64,000 bases of DNA, taken from contig NZ_BBXE01000013.1 in the NCBI RefSeq assembly GCF_001570565.1, positions 328,984 through 392,983 of the forward strand, written 5' to 3'. Below are positions 12,399 to 27,638 of this stretch, one piece after another (within the stretch, counting starts at the first letter, position 1; every line of letters begins with the position of its first letter). Both the position numbers and the translations under genes were made by a program. The notes beneath the pieces are model-generated. The model had not been told where the DNA came from. It saw only the letters and a list, made by a program, of their open reading frames with translations, and searched no databases. The DNA is from Herbidospora yilanensis (GTDB lineage Bacteria > Actinomycetota > Actinomycetes > Streptosporangiales > Streptosporangiaceae).

Positions 12399-12428
12399 TT
12401 GTTCCGGTAGGAATTGTGTAGATATGCT
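12399..12428 (+). promoter_or_regulatory. Candidate promoter of the nucleoside-uptake/mtn operon
   Basis: TTGTTC (12399-12404) and TATGCT (12423-12428) are separated by 18 bases. GTAGGAATTGTGTAGATA (12407-12424) matches 13 of 18 positions with GTAGGATTTACCCAGATA at the mtnD promoter (23400-23417), a possible common operator. Confidence 0.45.
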
Positions 12429-12466
12429 CTCCATGCACCATCTACGCAGCTCGGAACCGGGACACC

Positions 12467-13495
12467 ATGAAATCAACCCCCGCCATCGCGACCGCAGCCC
12501 TCCTCCTTCTCGGCCTCGCGGCGTGCGGCGGAACCGACGCCGCCGAGACCGCCGAGGCCCCGCCGGCCAAGTCGATCATCCTGATCACCCCCAACCCGGT
12601 CGGCACCAACAGCTTCCTCCAGCTCGGCGTCAAGGGCGCCGAAGCCGCCGCCAAGGAGCTCGGCGCCTCCTTCAAGCTGTACGAGAGCAAGGACCCCACA
12701 TCCATCGCGCAGAACGTCGACGCGGCCGTCCGGGCCAAGCCGACCGTGATCGTGGGCATCAGCTTCTCCTTCGACGACGTGTTCGCCACCGTCCCCAAGG
12801 CCAACCCCGGCCAGCAGTTCCTCCAGGTCGACTCGTGCGCCAAGGACCAGGCGCCCAACCTGGCGTGCGTGTCGTTCAAGGAGCACGAGGCGGCCTACCT
12901 GGCCGGCGTCGAGGCGGGCCTGCTCTCCAAGAACGGCCAGATCGGCGTGGTCGCCGCGCTCGACACCCCGTTCATCCACCGCTGGATCGAGCCGTTCTTC
13001 GCCGGGGCCGCCTCGGTCAAGCCCGGCGCCCAGGGCACCCCGCTCTACGTCGGCGGCAGCAATCCCTTCAGCGACCCGGCCAGGGCCAAGTCGCAGGCCC
13101 AGACCCTCACCGGACGCGGCGTCGACGTCATCGCGGCGGCGGCCTCCGGCGGCAACCCGGGCGTGTTCGAGGCGGTCGCGGCGTCCGGCGGCAAGGCGTT
13201 CGGCGTCGACGTCAACCAGTGCGCGCTGAGCCCCGGCAACGTCATCGACAACGTCCTGAAGCACGTGGACGTCGCCGAGAACGCCGCCATCAAGGAGATC
13301 TTCGGCGGCAAGACCGGCGGCGTGAAGGTCTACGGCCTGGCCGAGGGCGGCGTGGGCGTCAACGCCCTGGACTACGACCTGGCCTCCTCCGGCTGCACGG
13401 TCGCGGCCAGCCCCGACGTGGTGGCGAAGGTCAAGCAGGCCCGCGACGACATCGTCGCCGGGAAGGTCACCGTCGCGGACCCGCTCCAGAGCTGA
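12467..13495 (+). CDS. BMP-family nucleoside-binding lipoprotein
   Basis: A 342-residue substrate-binding protein of the BMP/PnrA-like family, which binds purine nucleosides. The signal ends in LGLAAC with Cys20 lipidated. The core shows family features: PVGTNSFLQLGVKGAEAAAKELG, VVAALDTPFIHRW and FGVDVNQC. It is followed, with a stop/start overlap, by a two-domain ATPase and two permeases, then by mtn genes. I infer that it captures 5'-methylthioadenosine or a related nucleoside; the family supports nucleoside, while the specific ligand comes from context only. Confidence 0.88.
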   Translation: MKSTPAIATAALLLLGLAACGGTDAAETAEAPPAKSIILITPNPVGTNSFLQLGVKGAEAAAKELGASFKLYESKDPTSIAQNVDAAVRAKPTVIVGISFSFDDVFATVPKANPGQQFLQVDSCAKDQAPNLACVSFKEHEAAYLAGVEAGLLSKNGQIGVVAALDTPFIHRWIEPFFAGAASVKPGAQGTPLYVGGSNPFSDPARAKSQAQTLTGRGVDVIAAAASGGNPGVFEAVAASGGKAFGVDVNQCALSPGNVIDNVLKHVDVAENAAIKEIFGGKTGGVKVYGLAEGGVGVNALDYDLASSGCTVAASPDVVAKVKQARDDIVAGKVTVADPLQS

Positions 13496-14976
13496 TGTAC
13501 GCCGCCGAACTCGTCGGAGTGACGAAGCGGTTCGGCCCGGTTCTCGCCAACGACGGCATCGACCTGGCGGTCGCCAGGGGCGAGGTGCACGCCGTGGTCG
13601 GGGAGAACGGGGCCGGCAAGTCCACTCTGATGTCGATCCTGTACGGCCTGCACCGCCCCGACGCCGGAGAGGTCCGCCGCGACGGGAACCCGATCGTCCT
13701 GCGCTCCCCCACCGACGCCATCCGCCACGGCCTCGGCATGGTCCACCAGCGCTTCCGCCTGTTCCCCGGCCTGACCGTGGCCGAGAACATCGTGATCGGC
13801 GCCGAGCCGGTCCGGCGGGGCCGCCTCGACCGCGCCGCCGCGAACGAGGCGGTGGCCGCCCTCTCCGAGCGCTACGGCCTGCGCGCCGACCCGTCGGCCC
13901 TGGTCGGCGGCCTGCCGGTGGGGGTGCGCCAGCGGGTGGAGATCCTCCGCGCCCTCTACCGCCACGCCGAGGTGCTCATCCTCGACGAGCCGACGGCGGT
14001 GCTGACCCCCGGCGAGACCGACCGCCTCTTCGAGGTGCTCCGCACGGTCGCCGCGACCGGCGTCTCGATCCTGCTGGTCACCCACAAGCTGTCGGAGGTC
14101 CTGGCCGTCGGCGACCGGGTGACCGTGCTGCGCCAGGGCCGGGTCACCGGCCGGTTCACCACGGCCGAGACCGACGCCGACGAACTGGTCAACGCCATGA
14201 TCGGCCGGTCGCTCACCCCGCCCGCCCGGCGCCGCGCCCGCACGCCGGAGGGCGACCCGCTCCTGGAGGTGCGCGACCTGACGGTCCGCGACGGCGACGG
14301 CGTGGCCCGCCTGTCGGAGGTCTCGTTCGCAGTGCGCCCTGGCGAGATCGTCGGCCTCGCGGGGGTCGCGGGCAGCGGCCAGCGCGAGCTCATCGACTCC
14401 GTGACCGGCCTGCGCGGCCGGGTGGACGGCGTGTTCCTCGACGGCACCCCCGTCCTCGCGGGCCGGGACCCGCGTGTGGCCTACGTGCCCGAGGACCGCC
14501 ACGGCCGGGCCACCGCCCCCGCCATGTCGGTGGCCGAGAACGTCCTCATGGGCGCGCAGCGCGACCTGGCCTCACGATGGGCCCTGCCCCGTGCCAAGGT
14601 CCGGGCCCGCGCCCGGGACCTGGTCGATCGCTTCTCCATCAGCGCCGCCTCGGTCGACGTCCCGGTCGGCGCGTTGTCCGGCGGCAACGCCCAGAAGACG
14701 GTGCTGGCCCGCGAGCTCACCCGGCCGTCGCAGGTGGTGGTGGCCGAGGAGCCGACCCAGGGCGTGGACGTGGGGGTGCGCGAACGCGTCCACGACCTCC
14801 TGCGCGCCGCCCGCGACGAGGGCGCCGCCATCCTCCTCCAGTCGAGCGAGCTCTCGGAGCTCCGCGACCTCGCCGACCGCATCCTGGTCCTGTACGAGGG
14901 CCGCGTCGTCGCCGAGTTCCCCGGCGACGCCTCCGAGAAGGAACTCGGCCGCGCGATGACGGGAGCGACCGGATGA
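13495..14976 (+). CDS. Nucleoside ABC transporter ATPase, two fused ABC domains
   Basis: A 493-residue duplicated ATPase of the sugar/nucleoside CUT2 type. Domain 1 has a full Walker A (GENGAGKST) and Walker B (LILDEPTAV). Domain 2 has the degenerate P-loop GVAGSGQREL, signature LSGGNAQK and VVAEEPTQGVDVG, as in RbsA and NupO-type proteins. Its ATG overlaps the binding-protein TGA (ATGA). It energises the permeases that follow. The ribose-type importer at 21294-23356 has no ATPase of its own, so this protein may drive it too. Confidence 0.9.
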   Translation: MYAAELVGVTKRFGPVLANDGIDLAVARGEVHAVVGENGAGKSTLMSILYGLHRPDAGEVRRDGNPIVLRSPTDAIRHGLGMVHQRFRLFPGLTVAENIVIGAEPVRRGRLDRAAANEAVAALSERYGLRADPSALVGGLPVGVRQRVEILRALYRHAEVLILDEPTAVLTPGETDRLFEVLRTVAATGVSILLVTHKLSEVLAVGDRVTVLRQGRVTGRFTTAETDADELVNAMIGRSLTPPARRRARTPEGDPLLEVRDLTVRDGDGVARLSEVSFAVRPGEIVGLAGVAGSGQRELIDSVTGLRGRVDGVFLDGTPVLAGRDPRVAYVPEDRHGRATAPAMSVAENVLMGAQRDLASRWALPRAKVRARARDLVDRFSISAASVDVPVGALSGGNAQKTVLARELTRPSQVVVAEEPTQGVDVGVRERVHDLLRAARDEGAAILLQSSELSELRDLADRILVLYEGRVVAEFPGDASEKELGRAMTGATG

Positions 14977-15038
14977 CGCCACTCGCGAAGCGGCGAAGCC
15001 GCACGAGGTCCGCGTGCCGGAGCGGAGGGCTCGCGTGA
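14973..15038 (+). other. 21-codon mini-ORF bridging ATPase and permease genes
   Basis: ATG 14973 overlaps the ATPase TGA (ATGA) and its own TGA overlaps the permease GTG at 15035 (GTGA), so it joins two genes otherwise 58 bases apart. The peptide is Arg/Ser-rich (begins MTPLAKRRSR). It may be a translational relay, a displaced permease N-terminus, or chance. No family is recognised. Confidence 0.35.
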
Positions 15039-16065
15039 GCGCGCCCGTCGTCGCCCGCCGCGTGGTGGCCTCCGCACCCGTCGTGGCGGTGGCCGGAGCG
15101 CTCCTCCTGACCACCCTCGTCATGCTGGTGGTCGGCGTCGATCCCACGCTGGCCTATCCGGCGCTGATCAGAGGGGCCGTCCTCGACGGCAACCTCGAAT
15201 ACACGGTCGCGGCGTTCGTGCCCACGCTCGGCATGGCGCTCGCGTTCGCCCTCCCGCTCCGCGCGGGCGAGTTCAATCTCGGCGGCGACGGCCAGCTCGC
15301 CATGGGCGGGGTGACGGCGGCGGCGGTCGCCTGCTGGTGCCGCTGCCCCCGGGAGCGGCCGTCGTGCTGCCGCTGTTCCTGGGGGCGGTCGCGGGCGGGC
15401 TGGTGGCCGTGGTCGCCGCGCCGCTCAGCACGCGCCTCGGCCTCCCCGCCATCGTCAGCACCCTGCTCATCAGCGCCCCGGCCGTCTCCCTGGCCTCCTA
15501 CCTGGTGCGTTTCCCGCTGGCCGAACCCAACACCGGCATCGCGCAGACCCCGCCCCTGCCGGAGGCGGCCCACCTGCCCGCCCTCGGCGGCAGCGGCTAC
15601 CTCACGATCGGCCTGCCGCTGATCGCCGTGCTCACCACCCTGTGGTTGTACGCCGACGGCCGGACCGTCCTCGGCTACGAGATCCGGGCCACCGGCCAGA
15701 ACCGGGAGTTCGCCCGTTACGGCGGCGTCCGGGTGGACCGGGTGGCCGCCCTCGCGCTGGCGGGCGGCGGCGCGTTCGCCGGGCTCTCGGGCGCGTTGAT
15801 CGTGCTGGGCCCGCCGCACCGGTTCGTCGACGGCGCGCTGACCGCACCCGGATACACCTTCACCGCCGTCGCGGCGGTGCTGCTGGCCGGCGCCCGCCCG
15901 ATCGTCGTGCCGCTCACCGTGGCACTGCTGACGTTCCTCCAGGTCGGCGGCCAGGGCATGGAACGGGAGGCCGGGGTGCCGAGCCAGCTCACGCAGATCG
16001 TGCAGGGGCTGATCATCGTGATCGTGGCGGTCCTCGCGACCCTCCGGACGAGGAGGCCGAGGTGA
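15035..16065 (+). pseudogene. Nucleoside ABC permease (NupP-like), broken by one frameshift
   Basis: The N-terminal part (VSAPVVARRVV to LGGDGQLAMGGVTAAAVA) is read from GTG 15035, which has GGAGGG 5 bases upstream. Permease sequence then continues in the next frame from about 15331 (LLVPLPPGAAVVLPLF) to the TGA at 16065. Restoring one base near 15329-15331, beside a GCG-rich run, gives an intact ~343-residue BPD_transp_2 permease with FNLGGDGQLAMGG and IVSTLLI signatures. The rest shows no other damage, so the lesion is either recent or a sequencing error. If real, the importer would lack one of its two membrane subunits. Confidence 0.82.
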
Positions 16066-16955
16066 ACGTCTTCGAGTGGTCGTTCCTGGCCGGCGTTCTC
16101 ACGGCCACCGCGCCGGTGCTGCTGGCCGCGCTCGGCGGCCTGCTCTGCCAGGTCGCGGGCGTGTTCAACATCGCGCTGGAAGGCCAGTTGTTGTGGGGCG
16201 CGTTCGTCGCTGTCGTGGTCAGCGACCTGACCGGCAGCGCGTGGGCGGGCGTCGCGGGCGCGGTCGCCGCGACGGTGTTGTTCTCGGCGCTGCTGTCGGG
16301 GCCGTCGGTGGCGTTGCGGGCCGACCCGATCGTGGTCGCCGTCGGGCTCAACCTGCTGGCGCTCGGGCTGACCGCGTTCCTGATGCGGCAGATCTTCGGC
16401 AGCGGCGGCACCTACAGCTCTCCCGACCTGGCCGGCCTTCCTGACCTGGGCGAACTCGGCCTGGACGTCCCGGTGCTGAGGGATCAGTCGCCGCTCGTGC
16501 CGGTCGCCCTGCTGCTGGTCGTCGTCCTGGCCCTCTGGCTGACCCGCACCCGGTCGGGCCTGCGGCTGCGCGCGGTCGGCCAGCATCTCGACGCCGCCCG
16601 GGCCGTCGGCCTGCGCGTCTCCGGTTACCGGCACGGCGTGACGCTGGTCGCGGGCGCGTTGTGCGGGCTGGCCGGGGCGCAGCTCTCGCTCGGCAACGTG
16701 ACGCTGTTCAGCGAGGGCATGAGCGCCGGCCGCGGCTGGATCGCCGTGGTGGCGGTCATGCTCAGCGGCGTCTACCCCGGGCGGCTGCTGCTGGCCTGCC
16801 TGCTGTTCGGCATGGCCGAGGCGTTCGGGTTCCGGCTCCAGGGCGCGGGCCTGCCGCAGCAGGCCGCCGACGCCGCCCCCTATGTGATCACGCTGGCCGC
16901 GCTGGTGCTCGCCGCCGTGGCGCGGCGGCGGAGGAGGTCGTATGAACACGCCTGA
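16062..16955 (+). CDS. Nucleoside ABC transporter permease (NupQ-like)
   Basis: A 297-residue polytopic permease. FNIALEGQLLWGAF near residue 38 is the hallmark of the nucleoside branch of BPD_transp_2 permeases. About eight hydrophobic segments follow, with LRAVGQHLDAARAVGLRV as the cytoplasmic coupling loop. The GTG overlaps the preceding permease stop (GTGA), and its own last 14 bases overlap mtnA. It forms the pore with the frameshifted partner. Confidence 0.9.
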   Translation: MNVFEWSFLAGVLTATAPVLLAALGGLLCQVAGVFNIALEGQLLWGAFVAVVVSDLTGSAWAGVAGAVAATVLFSALLSGPSVALRADPIVVAVGLNLLALGLTAFLMRQIFGSGGTYSSPDLAGLPDLGELGLDVPVLRDQSPLVPVALLLVVVLALWLTRTRSGLRLRAVGQHLDAARAVGLRVSGYRHGVTLVAGALCGLAGAQLSLGNVTLFSEGMSAGRGWIAVVAVMLSGVYPGRLLLACLLFGMAEAFGFRLQGAGLPQQAADAAPYVITLAALVLAAVARRRRRSYEHA

Positions 16956-17934
16956 ACTGGCGAACTCGGTCCGGCTGACCGGCGACGCGGTGGAGATCCT
17001 CGACCGGCGCGTCTACCCGTTCGAGCGGAGGTGGGTGCGCTGCACGACCAGCGACGAGGTCGCCCAGGCGATCAAGGACATGGTCACGCAGAGTTCGGGC
17101 CCGCTGTTCGCGACCACGGCCGCGATGGTGCTGGCCGCCCGATCGGTCCGGCACCGGCCCCGCGACCTGGCCATGAGGGAACTGCGGGCGGCCGGTGACC
17201 GGCTCGTCGCCACCCGTCCCACCAACAACCACATCCGCGACGCCGTCGCCGCGATCCTCGCGGAGCTCGAAGAGGGAGACCTGGCCGAACAGGTCGAGGC
17301 GGCGGCCGCCGCCCATGACCAGGCCTACCGCGACCGGTCGGCCGCCCTGGGCCGGCACGCCGCCGGCCTGCTGCCCGACGGCTCGACGGTGCTCACCCAC
17401 TGCTGGGCCGACTACTACCTGATCGCGACCGTCCAGGCCGCCCAGGAACAGGGCAAGTACCTGGAGTTCGTCTGCACCGAGACGCGCCCCTACCTCCAGG
17501 GCGCGCGGCTCACCGCGGCGACCTTGGTCGAGATGGGTTACGAACCCACGCTGATCACCGACGGCATGGCCGCCGCCGCCCTGGCCAACGGCGTCGCCGA
17601 TGTCGTCCTGGTCGCGGCCGACCGCGTCACCCTCGACGGCCACGTGGTCAACAAGGTCGGCACGCTCGGCGTCGCCCTGGCCGCGAACCGGTTCGGCCTG
17701 CCCTTCCACGCGCTGGTCCAGCGCCCCGACCCGCAGGCCCCCACCCCGGCCGACGTGGTGATCGAGCACCGCGACCCCGACGAGGTGCTGCACGTCCTCG
17801 GGGTGAGGACCGCCGCCCACGGCGTCACCGGCCACTATCCGGCCTTCGACACGACACCACCTGACCTGGTCACCCGGATCGTCACAGAAAAGGGCGCCTT
17901 CCGCCCGGAGAACGTAAAAGAGGCACTTCAATGA
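16942..17934 (+). CDS. mtnA: S-methyl-5-thioribose-1-phosphate isomerase-like (aIF2B family)
   Basis: A 330-residue member of the MtnA/eIF2B-alpha fold. Family motifs are visible: TNNHIRD (~residues 94-100), VLTHCWADYY with the probable catalytic Cys, TRPYLQGARLTA, and VAADRVTLDGHVVNKVGT with the catalytic Asp. MtnA converts MTR-1-phosphate to MTRu-1-phosphate. Ribose-1,5-bisphosphate isomerases share the fold, but mtnB, mtnC, mtnK and mtnD nearby make MtnA the best reading. It starts inside the permease end and overlaps the next gene by ATGA. Confidence 0.85.
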   Translation: MNTPELANSVRLTGDAVEILDRRVYPFERRWVRCTTSDEVAQAIKDMVTQSSGPLFATTAAMVLAARSVRHRPRDLAMRELRAAGDRLVATRPTNNHIRDAVAAILAELEEGDLAEQVEAAAAAHDQAYRDRSAALGRHAAGLLPDGSTVLTHCWADYYLIATVQAAQEQGKYLEFVCTETRPYLQGARLTAATLVEMGYEPTLITDGMAAAALANGVADVVLVAADRVTLDGHVVNKVGTLGVALAANRFGLPFHALVQRPDPQAPTPADVVIEHRDPDEVLHVLGVRTAAHGVTGHYPAFDTTPPDLVTRIVTEKGAFRPENVKEALQ

Positions 17935-18881
17935 CCAGGCGCATCGTCGTCGACACCGACACGGGCATCGACGACGCCCACACCCTGCTCTATCTGGCCG
18001 GCCGCCCCGACGCCGAGATCGTGGCGGTCACCTCGGTGTTCGGCAACTGCGTCGAACCCGACGCCGCCCGCAACATCGCCTACGTCACCCGCCTGCTCGG
18101 CCTCGACGTGCCGATCGCCCGGGGCGCGGCCGAACCCCTCACCGGCACCGCCCACATCGCCGGGTACGTCCACGGCAAGGACGGCCTGGGCGACGTCGGC
18201 TACGACCGCCCGCTCCCCGAGACCGGCGGGGAGAGCGCCGCCGAACTGCTGGTCCGCCTCGGCCGGGAGCAGCCGGGCGAGCTCGACCTGCTGGCGCTCG
18301 GGCCGCTGACCAACCTCGGCCGGGCGCTGCGCCTCGACCCGGAGCTGTTCACCCGCTACCGGTCGGTCGTGCTGATGGGCGGGTCGGGCCCATACGCCCC
18401 GCCCGGGACCCTGCTCATGGTCGACGCGAACATCAACAACGACCCTGAGGCGGCCCGCGCGGTCTTCTCGGCCCCCCGCAACGAGCTCGTCATGGTCGGC
18501 GTGAACGTCACCGCCACCACGATCCTCGACGAGGTGGCCATCAACGCCCTGCGGGCCGCCGGCACCCCGGTCGCCCGCTTCGCGACCGAGATCCTCGACG
18601 CCTACCTGGACTTCTACCAGAACGAGTGGGGCCGGCGGATCATCCCGCTGCACGACCCCCTCGCCGCCGGGATCCTGCTCGATCCCACGTTCGCGACCGC
18701 GTCGGCCGACGGGCCGGTTAACGTACGGACCGACGGTTTCCTGGCCAGGGCCAGGCTGATGCGGACCCACGACGGCCTGCCGCCGGCCTTCCCCTACCAG
18801 GCCGCCCCGCCCACCAAGGTGGTCACCGAGGTGGACGCGGCCCGCTTCGTCGCCGACTTCGTGGAGGTGCTCACCCGTTGA
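17931..18881 (+). CDS. Inosine/uridine-preferring nucleoside hydrolase family
   Basis: A 316-residue N-ribosylhydrolase. The N-terminal VDTDTGIDDA supplies the Asp cluster binding Ca2+ and the ribose hydroxyls; LALGPLTNL and VLMGGSGPY are further signatures, and HDPLAA near residue 240 carries the ligand-binding His-Asp. The family cleaves nucleosides to base and sugar. Inside an mtn operon that has a kinase (mtnK) but no recognisable MTA nucleosidase or phosphorylase, it is a good candidate for hydrolysing methylthioadenosine to adenine and methylthioribose. That substrate is inferred from context. Confidence 0.9.
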   Translation: MTRRIVVDTDTGIDDAHTLLYLAGRPDAEIVAVTSVFGNCVEPDAARNIAYVTRLLGLDVPIARGAAEPLTGTAHIAGYVHGKDGLGDVGYDRPLPETGGESAAELLVRLGREQPGELDLLALGPLTNLGRALRLDPELFTRYRSVVLMGGSGPYAPPGTLLMVDANINNDPEAARAVFSAPRNELVMVGVNVTATTILDEVAINALRAAGTPVARFATEILDAYLDFYQNEWGRRIIPLHDPLAAGILLDPTFATASADGPVNVRTDGFLARARLMRTHDGLPPAFPYQAAPPTKVVTEVDAARFVADFVEVLTR

Positions 18882-19537
18882 GCTGGATCGTGCTGGACAT
18901 CGAAGGCACCACGAGCTCGACCGAGTCGGTGCACGTGGGCCTCTACTCCTACGCCCGCTCGCGCCTCGGCCCGTGGATCGACGCCCACCGCGACGACCCC
19001 GAGGTCGCCCAGGCCGTCAAGGAGACCGGCGGCGCGACCACCGAGGAGACCGTCGCCATCCTGCACGGCTGGATGGACGGCGACGTCAAGGCGACCCCGC
19101 TGAAGACCCTCCAGGGGCAGATCTGGGCGGCCGGGTTCGCGAGTGGCGCGCTCACCTCCCACTTCTTCCCCGACGTCGCGCCCGCGCTGCGCCGGTGGCA
19201 CGCCCAGGGCAGGCGCCTGGCCGTCTTCTCGTCGGGCGCGGTCTCCAGCCAGCGGCCGTGGTTCCGGCACAGCCCCGACGGCGACCTTTCGGTGCTGATC
19301 GAGCACCACTTCGACACGGTCAACGCGGGCCCCAAACGCGAGAGCGCCTCCTACGAACGCATCGCCGCCACGCTGGAGACCGACGACCTGCTGTTCCTGT
19401 CGGACGTGCCGGCGGAACTCGACGCCGCGGCGGCGGCCGGATGGCAGGCGATCGGCTTGCGGCGGCCCGGCGAGCCGAGCGAGCGGGCCGACTTCGGTGC
19501 CCACCGGGTGGTCACGAGCTTTGAGGAGATCGCATGA
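18878..19537 (+). CDS. mtnC: Acireductone synthase (enolase-phosphatase E1)
   Basis: A 219-residue HAD-fold enzyme. IVLDIEGTTSS has the D-x-E-G-T-T motif specific to MtnC, with Asp as the nucleophile. Motif II is VFSSGA, motif III the Lys in GPKRES, and motif IV LFLSDVPAELDAA. It enolises and dephosphorylates DK-MTP-1-P to acireductone. The start is TTG, overlapping the hydrolase stop (TTGA). mtnB follows with another 4-base overlap. Confidence 0.93.
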   Translation: MSWIVLDIEGTTSSTESVHVGLYSYARSRLGPWIDAHRDDPEVAQAVKETGGATTEETVAILHGWMDGDVKATPLKTLQGQIWAAGFASGALTSHFFPDVAPALRRWHAQGRRLAVFSSGAVSSQRPWFRHSPDGDLSVLIEHHFDTVNAGPKRESASYERIAATLETDDLLFLSDVPAELDAAAAAGWQAIGLRRPGEPSERADFGAHRVVTSFEEIA

Positions 19538-20145
19538 ACAGGGAAGACGTGCTGGCCGCCGGGGGGCGGCTGGCCGTGGAGGCCGCCCGGTACACCGGGA
19601 TCGGCTGGATGCGCGGCACCTCCGGCAACCTGTCGGAGGTGGTCTCCCGCGATCCGCTGCGGCTCGCGGTGACCGCGAGCGGTCTCGACAAGGGCGAGCT
19701 CACCCCGTCTGACGTCGCCGTGGTCGGCGAGCGGGGCGAACCGGTCGCGGTGGCGGGCGTCGAACCGCTGACCCCGTCGGCCGAGGCGGGCCTGCATGCG
19801 CGGGTCGCGGCGGTGACCGGCGCCGACGCGATCGTGCACGTCCACGCGCTGAACGCCGTGGTGGCGGCCCACCACTGGCCGGAGGGCGTGGTCCTGAAGG
19901 ACGTCGAGACCCTCAAGGGCATCGGCCGCCTGGCCCACGACGACGAGGTCGTCATCCCCGTCATCGAGAACAGCCAGGACATGACCGAGCTCGGCGACCG
20001 GTTCGAGGCCGGGTACGACGCGGCGACCCCGGCCGTGATCGTCGCCAACCACGGTCTCTACACGTGGGCGCCCACCCTCCACCGGGCCCGGCACGTCACC
20101 GAGTGCGTGGAGTGGCTGCTGGCCTACCGGATCGCTATCCGCTGA
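19534..20145 (+). CDS. mtnB: Methylthioribulose-1-phosphate dehydratase
   Basis: A 203-residue class II aldolase-fold protein. GWMRGTSGNLSE (~residues 23-34) binds phosphate, VHVHALN carries the Zn-binding His pair, and a third His lies in VANHGLYTW. It dehydrates MTRu-1-P to DK-MTP-1-P, upstream of MtnC. It is the last gene of the plus-strand run; its final 11 bases overlap the 3' end of mtnK on the opposite strand, leaving no terminator. Confidence 0.92.
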   Translation: MNREDVLAAGGRLAVEAARYTGIGWMRGTSGNLSEVVSRDPLRLAVTASGLDKGELTPSDVAVVGERGEPVAVAGVEPLTPSAEAGLHARVAAVTGADAIVHVHALNAVVAAHHWPEGVVLKDVETLKGIGRLAHDDEVVIPVIENSQDMTELGDRFEAGYDAATPAVIVANHGLYTWAPTLHRARHVTECVEWLLAYRIAIR

Positions 20146-21307
20146 CGAGCAGGTCGCCGACCCGGTCGAACAGGTCCCGGCCGGGCTCGGCGGTCAGCAG
20201 GTGCCGCGCCGCGCGCAGCGACCGCCTGATCGCGACGGCCCGCTCGGCCTCGGGCAGCGTCTCGATGTCGCTGACCCGGGCGAACCCGATGATCCGCCGG
20301 GCCGCCTTGGCCGCGCCGAACACCGCGGCGTCCCCGCGCACGGTGGCCAGATAACCCTCCAGCACGCCGTCGCCGTAGATCCGCGGGTCCACCCGCCGCG
20401 GCCACAGGGCCCGGAACTCGGTCTCGAAGGCCGCCCAGGTCTCCTCGGCCAGCCCGAGCACCCAGCGGGCGTGCTCGTCCTGTTCCCGTACGAAGCCACG
20501 CGCCGCCGCGAGCACGTAGTTGCCCCACAGGGCGCCGAGGTCGAAGCCGACCGGCCCGTAGAAGGCGAACTCGACGTCGAACGCCCGGGTCGAACCGGGC
20601 TTCACCAGCACCGAGCCGGTGTGCAGGTCGCCGTGGATCAGGGCCTCGGCGCGCGTCATGAACGCCAGCTTGGCCAGCCCGATCGCGGTCCGCACGTCGG
20701 GGTCGCCCACGTAGGCGGCCACGTCGGCCTCGGTGGCGGGGAGGATCTTGTTGTGCTCGTGCTCGATGTACGGCTCGGTGAAGACCAGGTCCTCGGTGAT
20801 CTCGCACAACTCGGGGTTGACCGCGGCGGCCAGGGCGGCCTTGTGCCGGTGGTTGCCCAGGCCGAACACCGAGGTGCCGAAGGCGACCCTGGCGACGTAC
20901 CGGCCGAGATCGGCGGCGACCCCGTCGGTGCGCACACCCTCGTTGAGCAGGCCGCGCCAGACCCGGTGGTCCGAGAGGTCCTCCAGGGCGACGACGTGCC
21001 GGTCATGGTCGACGTCGAGCAGGGCGGGCACGAGCCCGGGGGCCACCCGGCCGTGTTCGGCCAGGACGGCGGCCTCGATGCGGTTGCGGTCGGGCGTGAC
21101 CGGCCAGGCCGGGTCGACCCGGACGTAGGGCATCGACTGCTTGAGCACCACGCCGGGGCCGCCCTCGGCCGCCACGGCGAACACGATGTTCATGTTGCCG
21201 TCGCCGATCTCCCGCACCGAGACCGGCTTCGCGAACGCCGCCAGCGCCGGGCGGCTCGCGAGGTAGCCGGGCACGTTGTCGACGGTCAGCAGCTCATAGG
21301 CGCTCAA
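20135..21307 (-). CDS. mtnK: 5-methylthioribose kinase
   Basis: A 390-residue APH/choline-kinase-fold enzyme. REIGDGNMNIVFAV is the MtnK glycine-loop signature, VVLKQSMPYVR carries the ATP lysine, ALIHGDLHTGSVLV the catalytic Asp, and DVEFAFYGPVGFDLG the metal-binding Asp. It phosphorylates MTR to MTR-1-P, the MtnA substrate. The start is TTG 21307 with AGGAG upstream, 14 bases inside the permease gene. It is the third gene of a minus-strand operon with a ribose-type importer, implying that imported MTR is phosphorylated directly. Confidence 0.93.
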   Translation of the reverse strand: MSAYELLTVDNVPGYLASRPALAAFAKPVSVREIGDGNMNIVFAVAAEGGPGVVLKQSMPYVRVDPAWPVTPDRNRIEAAVLAEHGRVAPGLVPALLDVDHDRHVVALEDLSDHRVWRGLLNEGVRTDGVAADLGRYVARVAFGTSVFGLGNHRHKAALAAAVNPELCEITEDLVFTEPYIEHEHNKILPATEADVAAYVGDPDVRTAIGLAKLAFMTRAEALIHGDLHTGSVLVKPGSTRAFDVEFAFYGPVGFDLGALWGNYVLAAARGFVREQDEHARWVLGLAEETWAAFETEFRALWPRRVDPRIYGDGVLEGYLATVRGDAAVFGAAKAARRIIGFARVSDIETLPEAERAVAIRRSLRAARHLLTAEPGRDLFDRVGDLLVSG

Positions 21308-22268
21308 CGGAACTCCTGAGGGTGTAGCTCACGACGAGGGCCCCTGCCAGCAGGGCGCCCTGGACGAAGGTCTGGGTGTAGTAGGGGGCGTTCAGCATGG
21401 TCATGCCGTTGATCACCACGCCGATGAAGACGGCGCCGACGACGGTGCCGGCCGTGTTGGGCCGGTTGGCGCCCAGGACGGCGTAACCGATCAGCGCCGC
21501 CGCCACCGACTGGAGCAGGTAGGGGTCGCCCGCGCCCACGTCGCCCCGGCCCAGCCGGGCCGACAACATGATCCCGGCGACGGCCGCGCAGATCCCCGAC
21601 ACGGCGTAGGCGAGGGCCCGGTAGCGGGCCACCCGGATGCCGGCGAGGCGGGCCGCCTCGGCGTTGCCGCCGATGGCGTAGAGGGCGACGCCCCAGCGGG
21701 TGCGTTCGAGGAACAGGTAGACGACCACCGCGACCAGCGCGAACACGATGACCGGGACCGGCACCGAGCCGACCTTGCCGGCCCCGATCCAGGCGAAGCC
21801 CTCGGTGTAGCGGCCAGGCGCGGGCGCGCCGTCGACGGTCATGCCCGGCGCGACCGACCTGCCCGAGGTGAGGATGAGGGCGAGGCCCTGGAACAGGAAC
21901 ATCGTGCCCAGCGTGGCCACCAGGTCGGGGATCCGCGCCACCACGGTGAGCAGCGCGTTCACCCCCGCGACCAGCAGCCCGGTGAGCAGGCCGGCGACGA
22001 TCGCGGTGCCGCCGGTGAGGTTGAACCGGACCATGGCCAGCGCGGTCACCATGACGACCGCGCCGACCGCCGCGCCCGCGGACAGGTCGAAGCCGCCCGT
22101 GGTCATCGACACGGTCACCCCGAGCGCCACCACCCCGACGATCGCCACCGACTGCAGGATGATCAGCGCGTTGGCGTAGGAGGCGAAGGCGGGCCGGAGC
22201 ACCGCGAAGACGACCAGCAGGGCGGCCAGGATGACCAGCAGGCCGTACCGGTAGAGCAGACGGGTCAC
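21294..22268 (-). CDS. Ribose-type (CUT2) ABC permease, probable methylthioribose uptake
   Basis: A 324-residue RbsC-like permease. GGFDLSAGAAVGAVVM is the CUT2 GGxDLSxG signature, IPDLVATLGTMFLFQGLALILTSG the conserved central helix region, and YAIGGNAEAARLAGI the ATPase-contact loop. It starts at GTG 22268, overlapping the binding-protein stop (GTGA), and its end overlaps mtnK. No ATPase lies in this operon. The nearest compatible one is the nucleoside ATPase at 13495-14976, same family, opposite strand. Confidence 0.9.
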   Translation of the reverse strand: MTRLLYRYGLLVILAALLVVFAVLRPAFASYANALIILQSVAIVGVVALGVTVSMTTGGFDLSAGAAVGAVVMVTALAMVRFNLTGGTAIVAGLLTGLLVAGVNALLTVVARIPDLVATLGTMFLFQGLALILTSGRSVAPGMTVDGAPAPGRYTEGFAWIGAGKVGSVPVPVIVFALVAVVVYLFLERTRWGVALYAIGGNAEAARLAGIRVARYRALAYAVSGICAAVAGIMLSARLGRGDVGAGDPYLLQSVAAALIGYAVLGANRPNTAGTVVGAVFIGVVINGMTMLNAPYYTQTFVQGALLAGALVVSYTLRSSVERL

Positions 22269-23356
22269 GAAGCGGCCCAGGGCACCCGGGCGACGTCGGG
22301 CGTGGTCAGTTCGGGCACGGCGCTCGTGAGCTGCTCGATGTTGGCGATTCCGCCGTCGCGGAGCTGCTTCTGGGTGACCAGCGCGGGCGGGATCTTCAGC
22401 TCGGCGCCGACCTGCTCCCCGGCGACCAGCAGCGCGGCGGCCCGGACCGCGATCCGGCCGACGTTCGAGGGGTCGGTCGTGGCGGTCGCCACCCACGGGC
22501 TGTTCGGCTCGGTGATGACGCCGATGTCGGCGGTGGAGATGTCCGCGCCGTAGATCTTGATCTGATCCTGGAGTCCGAGCTCCTTGACCGCGATGGCCGC
22601 GCCCTTGGCGAACTCGTCGTACGGCGCGAAGATCGCCTTCACGTCCGGGTTGGCCTGGAGGGCGGCCTTGGCCTGGTCGGCGACGGCCGACGCGGTCGAG
22701 TTGTTGACCACGCCGATCTGGGCGACCTCCTTGATGCCCGGGTTGTCCTTCTTGAACTGCGTCCACACCTCGTTGCGCCGGTCGAGGGGGGCGAAGCCCG
22801 AGACGTACACATAGAGGACCTCGCCGGTACCCCCGGTGTCGGTCTTGAGCGCGCCCAGGGCCAGCTCGGCGATCTTGTGGTCGTCCTGGGTCAGCGCGAC
22901 GGCCTTGGGCGTGCCCGGGTCGACGTCGAAGGCGACCAGCGGGACGCCGGCGTCGGCGGCCTTCTTGATGGCGGGCTGGACGGTGTCGGCGAACCCGTGG
23001 TCGACGATGATCGCGTCGGCCTTCTGCTGGACGGCCTGCTCCAGGTTGAGCGCCTGCTTGTCGTTGTTGCCGTCGCCACTGGAGACCTCCAGCGTGATCT
23101 TGAGTGCCTGCGCCTCGGCCTGCGCCCCCGCTAGCCACTGCTCGAAGTAGTCACCGGACGAGAGCTGGCGGACGAGAGCGACCCGCACTCCCCCGGCGGC
23201 GAACTTCGCCGGGACGGAGGCGGCCGGAGACGCGACCGGCGCCGCCGGAGCGGACGAGGGCGCGGAGGTGGTCGTGGTGGAGGTTCCCTGGGAACATCCC
23301 GCGAGCGCCAGGACGCCCAGGAGAAGGGATGCGCCGAGAAGTCGTGCGTGAATCAC
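22265..23356 (-). CDS. Ribose-type periplasmic-binding lipoprotein
   Basis: A 363-residue RbsB-like (peripla_BP_4) protein. Residues 1-20 are a lipoprotein signal ending LALAGC, with Cys21 lipidated, followed by a long Ser/Thr/Ala/Pro linker. The domain has the usual QAVQQKADAIIVDHG, VAFDVDPGTPKA and AIFAPYDEFAKG hinge motifs. Leading an operon with a CUT2 permease and mtnK, it probably binds methylthioribose. GTG 23356 has a TAGCAT box 6 bases upstream and no ribosome site, so the message is probably leaderless. Confidence 0.9.
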   Translation of the reverse strand: MIHARLLGASLLLGVLALAGCSQGTSTTTTSAPSSAPAAPVASPAASVPAKFAAGGVRVALVRQLSSGDYFEQWLAGAQAEAQALKITLEVSSGDGNNDKQALNLEQAVQQKADAIIVDHGFADTVQPAIKKAADAGVPLVAFDVDPGTPKAVALTQDDHKIAELALGALKTDTGGTGEVLYVYVSGFAPLDRRNEVWTQFKKDNPGIKEVAQIGVVNNSTASAVADQAKAALQANPDVKAIFAPYDEFAKGAAIAVKELGLQDQIKIYGADISTADIGVITEPNSPWVATATTDPSNVGRIAVRAAALLVAGEQVGAELKIPPALVTQKQLRDGGIANIEQLTSAVPELTTPDVARVPWAAS

Positions 23357-23362
23357 ACTCGG

Positions 23363-23413
23363 ATGCTAGGCAGGCCCGGGAGTATTGTCCACTTTTCAAG
23401 TAGGATTTACCCA
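23363..23413. promoter_or_regulatory. Back-to-back promoters sharing one -35 region
   Basis: Minus strand: TGGACA (complement of 23386-23391), 17 bases, TAGCAT (complement of 23363-23368), feeding the leaderless binding-protein gene. Plus strand: TTGTCC (23385-23390), 17 bases, TACCCA (23408-23413), feeding mtnD. The two -35 hexamers overlap almost completely, so RNA polymerase probably cannot occupy both at once. Confidence 0.65.
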
Positions 23414-23440
23414 GATAGCCGCTGATTAGGGACGAAGCCC

Positions 23441-24004
23441 ATGACCTACCTCACCGTGTACACCGACGGCCCGGCCCCCGAGACCCTCCTGCGGACCGAA
23501 GACCAGGCCGAGATCGCGACGAGCCTGAAGGAGATCGGCGTCCGCCTGCGCCACTGGGAGATCGTCGACGGCCTCGACGGCGCGACCCCCGACGACGTCC
23601 TCGCCGCCTACCGCGACCAGGTCGCCGCCGTCGTCGCCGAAGAGGGCTACACCTTCGTCGACGTGGCCCGGCTCGGCCCCGACGCCCCCGCCGACGTCGC
23701 CGCCGCGGCCCGCGCCAAGTTCCTCAACGAGCACACCCACGACGACGACGAGGTCCGCTTCTTCGTGGCCGGCTCGGGCATCTTCTACCTGCGCGTCGAC
23801 GGCAAGGTGCACGCCGTCTTCTGCGAGCCCGGCGACCTGCTGAGCGTGCCCAGGCAGACCACCCACTGGTTCGACATGGGCACGAAGCCGCACTTCACCG
23901 CGATCCGCTTCTTCCACGACGACGACGGCTGGATCGGCGACTTCACCGGCGACGACATCGCGTCGCGCATCCCCGACTACGACACGATCGCGGCCGGCCG
24001 CTAG
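23441..24004 (+). CDS. mtnD: Acireductone dioxygenase
   Basis: A 187-residue cupin. The metal-site motif [17 protein letters not shown] contains the His-x-His-(3)-Glu set, and the fourth ligand is the His in [10 protein letters not shown]. The Fe form oxidises acireductone to 4-methylthio-2-oxobutyrate, the methionine precursor; the Ni form makes an off-pathway product. It is a single-gene unit with its own promoter. Its stop shares bases with the convergent M24 fusion gene (4-base overlap). The last step, a transaminase, is not in the window. Confidence 0.94.
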
Positions 24005-25023: not shown

Positions 25024-25070
25024 GGCGAACCCCCATCACAACACCGGGCCGGAGACCGCAGGATATGACC

Positions 25071-25101
25071 GAAGGGCCCCGGAAGCGTCCCGGGGCCCTT
25101 C
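25071..25101. terminator. Hairpin terminator after the polyamine operon
   Basis: GAAGGGCCCCGG, a 7-base spacer, then CCGGGGCCCTTC make a perfect 12-bp GC stem without a T-run. It lies 5 bases past the end of the mini-ORF that follows spermidine synthase and 48 bases before the M24 fusion start, separating the two minus-strand units. Confidence 0.75.
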
Positions 25102-25106
25102 TCCGC

Positions 25107-25160
25107 TCAGTTCTCCGGTAGCCAGAGGACCTCACGGACGCCGTTCAGCGTGCAGGTCAT
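25107..25160 (-). other. 17-codon mini-ORF coupled to spermidine synthase
   Basis: MTCTLNGVREVLWLPEN begins at an ATG overlapping the speE TGA (ATGA), exactly the coupling used at the two earlier junctions of this operon, and ends just before the terminator. It may be a small translated peptide or the relic of a longer speE tail after a frameshift, since the same frame stays open upstream. No family recognised. Confidence 0.35.
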
Positions 25161-26080
25161 GATCTGGGCGACGGGCCCCCGAAAGGACGGCGGCGCCAGG
25201 CCTTCGGGTATTTTCCCCGGATCTCCAGCGGGGGCACGAGGGCGGCGTCCAGGGTCCGCACGTCGATGCTGACCGGCCGGTAGGGCAGGGTGCGGAGCCG
25301 TTTGCCCATGACGGCGTGGGGGCGGTCGACGGTGTCGCGGCGGCCGCTGATGAAGGCCCACTCGTGGGCCGCCGAGCCGAAGTAGACGACCGTCGGGAAC
25401 GCCGCGATGAAGTTGTGCCACGAGCGGCGCAGGGTGGTCTGCCGCCACATGGTCGGGCAGCCGGCCTGGGTGGAGATGACGCCGCCCGGGGCCAGGGCCT
25501 GGGCGCAGAGGTTGAGGAACGTGGCGCTGTAGAGGCGGTCGTGCTGGGCCTGGCCGTCGTCGGTCTCGTCGGGGAGGTCGACGATGATGACGTCCCAGGT
25601 GCGGCCGGCCTCGACGGCGGCCTCGACGAAGGCGTAGCCGTCCTCGTAGTGGACGTGGATCGGACCCTCGTCGCCCTCGGCGGCGGCCAGTTCCCGCTCC
25701 GTGTAGCCGTAGGGCAGGCGGCTCGCGCACAACTTCACGGCCTGTTCGTCGATGTCGACGTGGTCGACGCGGGTCGCGCCGCAGGCGACGAGCATCTGGC
25801 AGGCGACGCCCTCGCTCGACCCGATGACGAGGCAGCGGTCCACCCGGTCGGCCAGAAGCACCGGCGGGATGGTCAGCGCCTCGTGGTAGACCTCCTGGGT
25901 CTGCTCGCTGCTCTGCCGCTCGCCGTTGGCGAAGAGCGTGATGCCGTGGGCGGTCTTGGCGAAGTCGAGGGTCTGGAACGGGGTGATCTCGCTGTGGATG
26001 ACCTCGTCGACGCGCCAGAGGCGTTCCATTCCGTCGGCGATGGGCTCGGCGACCCAGGTGGTGCCGTTGATGGTGATCAT
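25157..26080 (-). CDS. speE: Spermidine synthase-like aminopropyltransferase
   Basis: A 307-residue Rossmann-fold enzyme. GERQSSEQTQEVYHEALTIPP matches the Y-H-E segment of aminopropyltransferases, VLIGSSEGV-type sequence (LVIGSSEGVACQML) is the nucleotide loop, HVDIDEQAV carries the acidic residue, and EDGYAFVE and VIIVDLPDETDDG complete the site. It transfers aminopropyl from decarboxylated AdoMet to a diamine and releases methylthioadenosine. The usual DSTDP motif is replaced by DLPDETDD, so the amine acceptor may differ. It is ATGA-coupled to speH. Confidence 0.85.
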   Translation of the reverse strand: MITINGTTWVAEPIADGMERLWRVDEVIHSEITPFQTLDFAKTAHGITLFANGERQSSEQTQEVYHEALTIPPVLLADRVDRCLVIGSSEGVACQMLVACGATRVDHVDIDEQAVKLCASRLPYGYTERELAAAEGDEGPIHVHYEDGYAFVEAAVEAGRTWDVIIVDLPDETDDGQAQHDRLYSATFLNLCAQALAPGGVISTQAGCPTMWRQTTLRRSWHNFIAAFPTVVYFGSAAHEWAFISGRRDTVDRPHAVMGKRLRTLPYRPVSIDVRTLDAALVPPLEIRGKYPKAWRRRPFGGPSPRS

Positions 26081-26457
26081 GCGGATACCTCCGACGAGGG
26101 CGTGTCGCCCCGGCGGATCACCTGCACGGTGACCTGGCCGGGCTGGAGCTCGTGGGTGAGCAGGTCGACCGCGGTACGCGGGTCGGCCGCCCCACAGGTG
26201 AACACGTCGACGAACACGGCGGCGTGCTCCGGGTAGGTGTGCAGCGACGCGTGGGACTCGGCCAGGAGCGCCAGGATGGTGACCCCCTGGGGGACGAACC
26301 GGTGCGAGCTCATCTCCAGGATGGTCGCCCCCGACGCGGCCAGCGCCCGCTTGAGCGAGACCTCCAGGTGGGCGAGGTCGTCGAGGAGGCCGGCGTCGAC
26401 CCCCCGGAGCTCGGCGAGCACGTGACATCCGGCGAACTCGCCGATCGCGACGGTCAT
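26077..26457 (-). CDS. speH: S-adenosylmethionine decarboxylase proenzyme (SpeH type)
   Basis: A 126-residue small bacterial AdoMet decarboxylase. LAESHASLHTYPEH holds the self-cleavage site: Ser68 becomes the pyruvoyl group and the following His-Thr-Tyr-Pro-Glu is conserved. It supplies decarboxylated AdoMet for speE. Both ends overlap neighbours by 4 bases (ATGA), so the three polyamine enzymes are translationally coupled. Length and motif fit class 1b. Confidence 0.92.
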   Translation of the reverse strand: MTVAIGEFAGCHVLAELRGVDAGLLDDLAHLEVSLKRALAASGATILEMSSHRFVPQGVTILALLAESHASLHTYPEHAAVFVDVFTCGAADPRTAVDLLTHELQPGQVTVQVIRRGDTPSSEVSA

Positions 26458-27638
26458 CGCTCCTCCACGCAGAACGTCGGGAGGGCGGGCAGCCCGTTGA
26501 CGGCGGCGCACGAGTAGCTGGAGGTGTAGGCCCCGGCGTCGAGGATCTCCACCACGTCGCCGGGCGCCAGCGCGAGGGGGAGTTCGTACTGGACCCGCTG
26601 GTAGATCACGTCGTCGCCGTCGCTGGTCGGCCCGGCCAGCACGACGGGGCCGGTGGGCCCGGTCACGCCGGGGGTGCGCAGCCGGTAGGCGATGGCCTCG
26701 CGTTCGGTCTCGACCAGGCCGTTGTAGCGGCCGACGTCCAGGAACACCCAGCGCCGGTGGTCGGCGGCCCGCCCTTCCCTGACGGTCACCACCTCCGAGC
26801 GGATGATCCCGGCCGCCCCGACCATCGCCCGGCCTGGCTCCAGGAGGAGGCGCGGCCGGTTGCGGCTGCCGAAATGACGGTTCACCGAGGAGTTGACCGC
26901 CTCGCCGAACACCTCGATCAGCGGCCGGTTCCCGAACGCGGGGTTCGGGTTGTACGAGATCGGCAGCCCCCCGCCGAGATTGATCATCGGCAGCCTGACG
27001 CCCGCCGGCTCCAGTTGCAGCGCGATCTTCGCCGCCGCCGCGATGCCGACGTCCCACGCGTCGGGGTTGCACTGCTGCGACCCGACGTGCCAGGTGAGGC
27101 CGAGCGGCCGGAGCCCGTTCGCCGCCGCGTCGGCGAGCAGTTGCGCGGCGGCGTCGGGGTCGCAGCCGAACTTGCCGCCGAACGGCATCACCGCGTCGGG
27201 CGGGTCGACCGCGATGCGGCAGAAGACGTTCGACCGGGGCGCCCATCTCGCGATGTGGGCCAGGTCGCGAGGGTTGTCGAAGGCGAAGGTGCGCACACCG
27301 AGCCGGTAGGCGGCGGCGATGTCGGCGGCCTTCTTCACCGGATTGCTGTAGCTGAGGAAACGGCCGGGCACGCCGCGGGACAGGCATCGCTCGACCTCGC
27401 CGATGCTGGCGACGTCGAACCCCGAACCGAGGTCGAACAGGGTGGAGATCACTTCGGGCGCGGCGTTGGCCTTGACCGCGTAGAGGATGCCGGCGCCGGG
27501 GAACGCGGTGGACAACGCGCGGTAGGCCGCGGAGACCGTTGGCAGGTCGACGAGCAGAGAAGGACTGGGCAGGTGATGGGTTCTGGCGTACGCGCGTGCG
27601 CGGAGAATGGCCGGCTCCGACTGGGGTGACGCGCTCAT
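26454..27638 (-). CDS. Fold-III PLP-dependent amino-acid decarboxylase (ornithine/lysine decarboxylase-like)
   Basis: A 394-residue alanine-racemase-fold decarboxylase. Lys56 in YAVKANAAPEV is the PLP Schiff-base residue; HVGSQQ (184-188), LGGGLPI and LEPGRAMVG bind phosphate and PLP. It should make the diamine used by the speE product downstream. The second-subunit motif reads GPTSDGDD (336-343): Ser339 stands where ornithine decarboxylases have the catalytic Cys (GPTCD). Either the specificity differs or Ser suffices. First gene of the operon; a TTGACT promoter element lies ~95 bases upstream. Confidence 0.85.
   Translation of the reverse strand: MSASPQSEPAILRARAYARTHHLPSPSLLVDLPTVSAAYRALSTAFPGAGILYAVKANAAPEVISTLFDLGSGFDVASIGEVERCLSRGVPGRFLSYSNPVKKAADIAAAYRLGVRTFAFDNPRDLAHIARWAPRSNVFCRIAVDPPDAVMPFGGKFGCDPDAAAQLLADAAANGLRPLGLTWHVGSQQCNPDAWDVGIAAAAKIALQLEPAGVRLPMINLGGGLPISYNPNPAFGNRPLIEVFGEAVNSSVNRHFGSRNRPRLLLEPGRAMVGAAGIIRSEVVTVREGRAADHRRWVFLDVGRYNGLVETEREAIAYRLRTPGVTGPTGPVVLAGPTSDGDDVIYQRVQYELPLALAPGDVVEILDAGAYTSSYSCAAVNGLPALPTFCVEER

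Follow-up and report, generated by a model that had tools for sequence, protein, structure and literature searches.

A gene block of a soil actinomycete that probably imports methylthioadenosine and methylthioribose, the sulfur waste of other cells, and rebuilds methionine

The stretch of DNA analysed here, a window of 64 kb from the 7.85-Mb genome of Herbidospora yilanensis, carries between 12.4 and 27.6 kb a block of genes for two importers, a nucleoside hydrolase, the salvage enzymes MtnK, MtnA, MtnB, MtnC and MtnD and a polyamine (spe) operon. We propose with high confidence that the genes from 12.4 to 24.0 kb form a module for scavenging methylthioadenosine (MTA) and 5-methylthioribose (MTR) from outside the cell, with which this soil actinomycete would probably import the sulfur waste of other cells and rebuild methionine from it. 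Taken as a whole, with two gates, a hydrolase and a borrowed ATPase, this is likely the best explanation of the block. Cells generally dispose of MTA and 5'-deoxyadenosine, or of products made from them, by export (PMC12632272), and a two-gate scavenger would, if the proposal is correct, explain how some soil actinomycetes regain sulfur from such waste. Relative to the known mtr/mtn system, the new elements would be a probable takeover of an ATPase and a probable MTA hydrolase of another fold. A literature search of titles and abstract openings, reaching few subscription journals, returned among the matches listed no description of this block, of a common CUT2 ATPase or of an IUNH-type MTA hydrolase, and the caution about novelty voiced in an earlier note on this DNA was fair.

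Judged from gene order and strand, the region from 12.4 to 24.0 kb divides into three transcription units. The plus strand carries bmpA-ATPase-permease-permease-mtnA-hydrolase-mtnC-mtnB, the minus strand binding protein-permease-mtnK; the third unit is mtnD, again on the plus strand and transcribed away from the binding-protein gene. In the proposed scheme the BMP-type importer of the first unit (gate 1) would take up the nucleoside MTA, the hydrolase would cleave it into adenine and MTR, and an MtrB/MtrC-type importer (gate 2) would take up MTR directly. Both routes would join at MtnK and proceed, in keeping with the general roles of MtnA to MtnD, through MtnA, MtnB, MtnC and MtnD to the methionine precursor, and MTA made inside the cell would enter downstream of MtnK by way of MtnP, whose gene lies elsewhere. 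Gate 2, which has lost its own ATPase gene in Herbidospora and Acrocarpospora, would in these genera be driven by the ATPase of gate 1, with both operons apparently behind the same promoter element.

Named genomes searched with MtnK yielded 39 loci, taken with flanks of up to 10 kb, and a 150-genome sample of the Streptosporangiales gave 13 further regions, eight of which duplicate named loci. The mtn genes and both importers (tblastn) recur in Nonomuraea, Microbispora, Planotetraspora, Streptosporangium and A. catenulata; the module is partial or rearranged in other Acrocarpospora, Sphaerisporangium, Actinoallomurus and Thermocatellispora, and the whole block including the spe operon is present in 7/7 Herbidospora genomes, the host counted. 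Because the mtn part recurs across genera and the whole block in every Herbidospora genome, the arrangement is not due to chance, and several genera of the order have the mtn genes with both importers as a conserved module. Gate 1 and the hydrolase travel as a pair: in A. phusangensis they lie together on a separate contig, and in Naasia (Microbacteriaceae) 3/3 loci hold gate 2, mtnK and mtnA-D, with neither gate 1 nor the hydrolase within the mtnK flanks. Among the 150 genomes, mtnK occurs in 14 (11 clear orthologues of at least 71% identity, two at 40-43% and one fragment), mtnA in 19, including 10 of the 11 with clear mtnK, and the hydrolase, at E 1e-60, in 23 (11 full-length copies of at least 83%, two at 62%, one partial copy at 78% and nine at 42-44%). 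The two distant mtnK homologues (G043, G015) have no other mtn gene of the block within the 20 kb fetched, and the 11 non-actinobacterial loci (L058-L068) mostly hold mtnK by itself.

The substrate assigned to gate 2 follows from its binding protein. The mtrB-like gene (22265..23356, minus strand) encodes a protein whose best match among solved structures is 4ry8, at E 5.7e-75, the next structure being at 9.8e-40. Foldseek, given its AlphaFold model (mean pLDDT 84.8), likewise ranks three chains of 4ry8 first; that entry is titled as the solute binding protein of a 5-methylthioribose transporter. The likeness to this protein (TLET_1677 of Thermotoga lettingae) amounts to 42% identity over 307 alignment columns and a TM-score of 0.91 by target length, although the organism is distant. 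It agrees with the position of mtrACB, a probable, functionally uncharacterised MTR importer, beside the mtn genes in enterobacteria (PMC3228920), and gate 2 very probably carries MTR. The start codon of the mtrC-like (RbsC-type) permease gene (21294..22268, minus strand; CUT2 permease profiles, all under cut-off) overlaps the stop of the mtrB-like gene. Of the 'ribose-type importer' that had previously been recognised here, the binding protein and the permease are confirmed, but an ATPase gene is missing and the binding protein is nearest to the MTR-transporter type. The enterobacterial mtrACB and mtnKADCB genes (PMC3228920) resemble this block in that a CUT2-type MTR importer is encoded and co-regulated with mtnK, A, B, C and D. 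The present block, by contrast, is without an ATPase (mtrA) gene, adds a nucleoside gate and a hydrolase with no MtnN over cut-off, and has another promoter element instead of MetJ boxes, for which no search was made.

MTA produced inside the cell can, judging from gene content, enter salvage via MtnP, without MtnK or the hydrolase. The host encodes MtnP on a contig other than that of the mtn block (its two PNP-family genes are MtnP and a PNP), mtnP is found in 87/150 genomes of the order, including 11/11 with clear mtnK, and MtnN (TIGR01704) exceeds its cut-off in 0/16 genomes checked, the host showing no match to this profile even under cut-off. Because MtnP accompanies clear mtnK throughout and MtnN is not found over cut-off, internal MTA should be manageable by MtnP, and MtnK most likely receives its MTR from the hydrolase or from the surroundings; on this ground we interpret the block as serving to scavenge MTA and MTR that originate outside the cell. 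That MtnK substitutes for an absent MtnP is ruled out by the presence of MtnP in 11/11 genomes with clear mtnK, and an MtnN encoded elsewhere in the genome was likewise considered, none being found over cut-off.

The nucleoside hydrolase (17931..18881, plus strand) belongs to the IUNH fold (PF01156, 236 bits, cut-off 34.2) and has the Asp motif and the active-site His and Asn of the family. Among the mtn-linked copies that are distinct and full-length, 24/24 have Asp instead of Glu in the pair that holds the ribose O5' and a loop without Asn, whereas both residues are kept in 9/9 other hydrolases of the order and in the 5/5 solved relatives shown (of 24 matched). The count of 24 omits the broken copy of G064, an edge fragment in L045 and a pair of copies at about 60% identity, which also have Asp and no Asn (one next to mtnA in G074, the other next to a fragment of mtnA in G119). 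Three copies from Firmicutes are likewise omitted, of which two carry Thr and Ser and one retains Glu; each Lachnoclostridium contig contributed one of its two hydrolases to the alignment. His241, Asn167 and Tyr225/Tyr229, in what we take to be Crithidia numbering, are kept in 24/24, and the DTD-GIDD motif, allowing small changes at variable residues, in 23/24, G063 departing from it. The protein resembles the IUNHs RihA, Crithidia IU-NH and plant NRh in fold (4kpo is the top match), in the Ca-binding Asp motif and in the active-site His, Asn and both Tyr tied to purine cleavage, but differs from them in that both O5' hydrogen-bonding residues are altered.

RihA binds the ribose O5' through Asn158 and Glu164 (PMC2898832), and PMC8910321 describes nucleosides without a 5'-OH as very poor substrates and strict ribose specificity as common to the characterised isozymes. 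A hydrogen bond to the side chain is reported for 19/19 hydrolase complexes surveyed, 4/45 MTA nucleosidases and 1/21 MTA phosphorylases (PMC12648331). Since both residues that hold the 5'-OH are gone, the hydrolase may act on 5'-methylthio or 5'-deoxy nucleosides in place of MtnN, and we regard it as reasonably likely that its substrate is MTA or 5'-deoxyadenosine. If so, 5'-modified nucleosides would be predicted substrates for an enzyme of a fold in which the characterised representatives depend on the 5'-OH (PMC8910321).

The gene for the gate 2 ATPase is lost in Herbidospora and Acrocarpospora. In 11/11 loci of these genera no ATPase gene separates the genes for binding protein and permease, which overlap or are directly adjacent, whereas in 17/17 other actinobacterial loci with both genes 1.5-1.8 kb with an ATPase lies between them. 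With the Nonomuraea ATPase as query, 150 of the 247-262 first-look candidates were scored in each of the host, H. solisilvae and A. phusangensis, and no orthologue was present among those scored (best identity 46%, 38% and 41%, respectively); orthologues compared by BLASTP share 64-77% identity across 12 further genomes of this group, and those of two Naasia 48-49%. We propose that the double ATPase of the nucleoside importer, bmpATP (13495..14976, plus strand; best NCBIfam match NF047930, under cut-off), powers the mtrC-like permease as well.

This proposal draws on correlated change. We counted as fixed differences the alignment columns with no residue common to 10 ATPase-less and 10 ATPase-bearing genomes, excluding loci without some of the genes (A. 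phusangensis, L045, L048, L049) and four distant loci (three Naasia, one Actinomycetaceae); for bmpA one group had nine genomes. Such columns number 9/320 in the rbsC permease, 21/473 in bmpATP and 9/277 in bmpP2 (16065..16955, plus strand; the second permease of importer 1, with an NF047928 match under cut-off), against 16/2195 in the other eight genes. The corresponding Fisher p values, which serve as guides since columns are not independent of the tree, are 6e-9 for the trio versus the other eight genes and 1.1e-6 for rbsC and bmpATP alone versus nine, and six control splits of the same genomes revealed no excess (p 0.11-0.67). Four of the nine permease replacements fall in residues 189-198, directly before the GGN motif, a clustering seen in 0.7% of random draws, and the GGN segment is presumably the coupling helix of CUT2 permeases. 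One replacement exchanges Arg for Ile, Leu or Val at a position that is Arg in 7/9 other host CUT2 permease segments picked up by pattern and Tyr or Leu in the BMP permeases.

The gene trees tell a similar story, in that the stem of the ATPase-less clade takes up its largest shares of tree length in rbsC (0.082), bmpATP (0.056) and bmpP2 (0.049), compared to 0.009-0.040 in five other trees recovering the clade; three of the 11 trees (bmpA, mtnB, mtnD) did not recover it, and rbsB did so with a support of 0.47. Recombination is an unlikely source of the extra differences because bmpP1, between bmpATP and bmpP2, has 1/236 (C-terminal part). Correlated change of rbsC, bmpATP and bmpP2 on one branch suggests an ATPase common to both importers, and on balance we lean towards gate 2 running on bmpATP. 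The combined account, in which ancestral ATPase loss, takeover by gate 1, permease-ATPase co-evolution and an IUNH-fold MTA hydrolase replacing MtnN make up one scavenging machine, is put forward more tentatively. It would represent a natural ATPase replacement in an ATP-binding cassette (ABC) importer, with loss, takeover and correlated change placed on one tree branch. MsmX and MsmK provide a parallel, since one ATPase serves importers without their own, as correlated evolution and a common promoter element suggest here, but these belong to the CUT1 class and gate 2 to CUT2. In C. bescii, each CUT2 system has a dedicated ATPase (PMC8579813).

The promoter element GTAGGAATTGTGTAGATA lies ahead of operon 1 (12407..12424, plus strand), where it is conserved upstream of bmpA in other genera, and a second copy is found between the mtrB-like gene and mtnD (23400..23417, plus strand). 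The pattern GTAGGAWTTNNNNAGATA has two matches in the 64-kb window, one ahead of bmpA and one in the gap that separates mtnD from the binding-protein gene; since it was built from these two sites, the chance value of 0.01 cannot be taken as independent of them. The core GTAGGAWWT has 32 matches in 26 loci, 29 of them in the 150-base stretches that precede bmpA, mtnD or the binding-protein gene, where 0.49 are expected; two more precede mtnC or mtnA leading a relocated operon, and one lies elsewhere. At least one such promoter match is present in 21/26 loci, and the relocated gate-1 operon of A. phusangensis carries the core with one mismatch. The exact core is absent from the regions of 11 other ATPases of the host, from the mtnP and PNP loci and from a second spe operon. 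The distribution of the element indicates that the module is probably co-regulated.

The odc-speH-speE operon (25157..27638, minus strand; odc 26454-27638, speH 26077-26457, speE 25157-26080) is a neighbour of the module in Herbidospora only, and we left it out of the module. It adjoins the mtn block in 7/7 Herbidospora and in no other genus fetched: outside Herbidospora the flanks (up to 10 kb) of the fetched mtnK loci contain no speE or speH match, with one odc-like match of 28% in the mtnK flanks of A. phusangensis. This type of speE occurs in 8/150 genomes of the order, seven of them Herbidospora, and an S-adenosylmethionine (AdoMet) decarboxylase in 19/150, including 8/11 with clear mtnK; in the other 3/11 it is absent, and in G141 it lies on a different contig from mtnK. 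The promoter core common to the mtn units is missing at 7/7 spe promoters. The host has a second odc-speH-speE operon (L129:5202-7608), 59-67% identical and beside unrelated genes, with no mtn-block gene within the 14 kb fetched, and both speE and the AdoMet decarboxylase gene have a further copy in 7/7 Herbidospora. The polyamine neighbour is probably not the point of the block, although spermidine-derived MTA may possibly be recycled via MtnP and mtnA-B-C-D in Herbidospora. The earlier note had seen salvage and scavenging genes with two importers as one unit, which stands as a conserved module, but had built the block around spermidine waste, which is not supported; it had named polyamine and mtn genes lying apart in relatives as the finding that would contradict it, and the comparison of gene order largely found them so.

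As for the products of the operon, SpeH passes the AdoMet decarboxylase profile (TIGR03330, 111.6 bits, cut-off 75.65), and SpeE reaches 64.4 bits in Pfam (cut-off 22.9) and 72.7 bits with the NCBIfam speE equivalog (cut-off 249.55). The gene described earlier as 'speC-like' is present, but the label needs correcting, since it belongs to PF02784, of the alanine-racemase-type fold (best NCBIfam match lysA, 151 bits, cut-off 297.9). A reading of SpeH as a neofunctionalised ornithine/arginine decarboxylase, as described in PMC10407285, was set aside, a pyridoxal-phosphate-dependent decarboxylase and a SpeE homologue both being present. Separately, a different polyamine-MTA cluster (L131, G140:C231) has an AdoMet decarboxylase, an MtnP homologue and a fused MtnA-like/phosphoribosyltransferase gene within 9 kb, adjoining glutamine synthetase-like and kynureninase-like genes.

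The borrowed ATPase has to be weighed against the idea that gate 2 draws on a different CUT2 ATPase encoded in the genome or is a decaying remnant, which is possible but not what we favour. The host genome yielded 11 further RbsA-like ATPases, the nearest 46% identical to the lost one, and all 11 adjoin a permease-like gene; the promoter core occurs in 0/11 of their regions, the H. solisilvae ATPases among the matches listed all stay at or below 40% identity to the lost one, and correlated change singles out bmpATP among the block genes, which the test covered. As to a remnant, the permease and binding protein of gate 2 are under purifying selection, with dN/dS of about 0.16-0.22, similar to the pathway enzymes (for the permease, 0.22 within Herbidospora and 0.19 between genera).

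The nature of the cargo invites other accounts. BMP importers are usually nucleoside importers, and the nearest NCBIfam models of the importer 1 subunits are 'putative B6' importer subunits, all under cut-off, so that gate 1 and the hydrolase might be ordinary nucleoside (purine or B6-like) salvage merely located beside mtn genes; their conserved co-operon with mtnA or mtnC, the common promoter element and the loss of the O5' ligands in 24/24 copies make this unlikely. It is about equally improbable that the module serves 5'-deoxyadenosine and 5-deoxyribose rather than MTA and MTR, in the manner of the dihydroxyacetone phosphate (DHAP) shunt. The altered 5' pocket would admit 5'-deoxynucleosides as well, and E. 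coli MtnK and MtnA accept both substrate sets (PMC12632272). DHAP-shunt clusters (mtnK, mtnA, ald2; 5'-deoxynucleosides) share with this block the kinase and isomerase entry and the scavenging of MTA and 5'-deoxyadenosine, but lead through an aldolase to DHAP, whereas MtnB, MtnC and MtnD lead to methionine here. MtnC and MtnD serve the methylthio branch, and both are encoded; the binding protein, moreover, resembles that of the MTR transporter, though the module might serve both sets of substrates. A cluster of the DHAP-shunt type with a class II aldolase occurs in Lachnoclostridium (L063:8030-20105), where two IUNH hydrolases, mtnK, a DeoR regulator, the aldolase, mtnA, two PNP-family genes and a BMP importer lie together, and the one hydrolase taken into the alignment is without both O5' residues. 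Aquibacillus (L067; an mtnK homologue, a CUT1 importer and an IUNH) was set aside as a further case owing to weak mtnK similarity and a retained Glu. Finally, the block might be an integrated polyamine-MTA island in which spermidine synthesis makes MTA, its neighbours return it to methionine and the importers are secondary. Adjacency at high identity in 7/7 Herbidospora, the encoded AdoMet decarboxylase and SpeE homologue and the capacity of MtnP to pass MTA to mtnA-B-C-D speak for such an island, but its confinement to one genus, the three genomes with clear mtnK and without AdoMet decarboxylase, the spe operon located elsewhere without mtn-block genes in the fetched sequence and the spe promoters without the common element render it quite improbable, and recycling of a polyamine by-product is weakened as an organising idea by distribution and promoters alike.

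Several observations weigh against the scavenging module with its borrowed ATPase. Some genomes carry an incomplete module: mtnA is missing from the cluster in 4/5 Acrocarpospora examined (L035, L036, L037 and L029, G063 included), two of which have no mtnA genome-wide at E 1e-40, and these clusters still keep mtnB, mtnC and mtnD. G063 has gate 1 and a hydrolase with an altered Asp motif, an mtnK fragment only and no mtnA; G074 has a 61% hydrolase adjoining mtnA without mtnK; the hydrolase is broken in G064; G078 has mtnA-C-B-K-D with no importer in the flanks and no hydrolase at E 1e-60; and Thermocatellispora has gate 1 with no gate 2 in the flanks. The core promoter element is lacking in 5/26 loci, and 5/16 genomes have a TIGR01704 match under cut-off (45-62 bits versus 73.8). 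For the hydrolase, Glu to Asp is a mild change, and the AlphaFold model is poor in just this part of the protein, at residues 151-163 (pLDDT below 50). With regard to the ATPase, bmpP2 joined the trio after the data had been seen, bmpATP is above average in the Acrocarpospora control split too (11/473), and its replacements are scattered with no single visible docking face. Lastly, bmpP1 is frame-broken in the host assembly.

All genes from 12.4 to 27.6 kb that had been listed for this DNA are present in the order given, and all five salvage enzymes exceed some curated cut-off. MtnK, the 5-methylthioribose kinase (20135..21307, minus strand; TIGR01767, 358.7 bits, cut-off 275), MtnB, the methylthioribulose-1-phosphate dehydratase (19534..20145, plus strand; TIGR03328, 159.1 bits, cut-off 137.05), and MtnC, the enolase-phosphatase (18878..19537, plus strand; TIGR01691, 195.6 bits, cut-off 128.1), pass NCBIfam equivalog cut-offs. 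MtnA, the MTR-1-phosphate isomerase (16942..17934, plus strand), passes a subfamily cut-off only (NF004326, 278.8 bits, cut-off 271) and is under that of the equivalog TIGR00512 (213.2 bits versus 279); MtnD, the acireductone dioxygenase (23441..24004, plus strand), passes in Pfam only (PF03079, 94.8 bits, cut-off 27), NCBIfam profiles giving no match at 0.001. Gate 1 begins with bmpA, for a PnrA/BMP-type nucleoside-binding protein (12467..13495, plus strand; PF02608, 141.6 bits, cut-off 24.1). Its permease gene bmpP1 (14973..16065, plus strand; NF047929 match in two pieces) is spread over two frames with a break near 15325-15337, and both parts share one frame in 6/6 other Herbidospora. Rfam at gathering scores returned no riboswitch and just one tRNA. 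Between mtnD and the minus-strand spe operon lies a GGACT-M24 fusion gene (24001-25023, minus strand; PF06094, gamma-glutamyl cyclotransferase-like, and PF00557, M24 peptidase), present, among the loci fetched, in those of Herbidospora alone. In Nonomuraea sp. G32, an insert of about 1.7 kb (L052:11180-12900) separates mtnK from mtnB.

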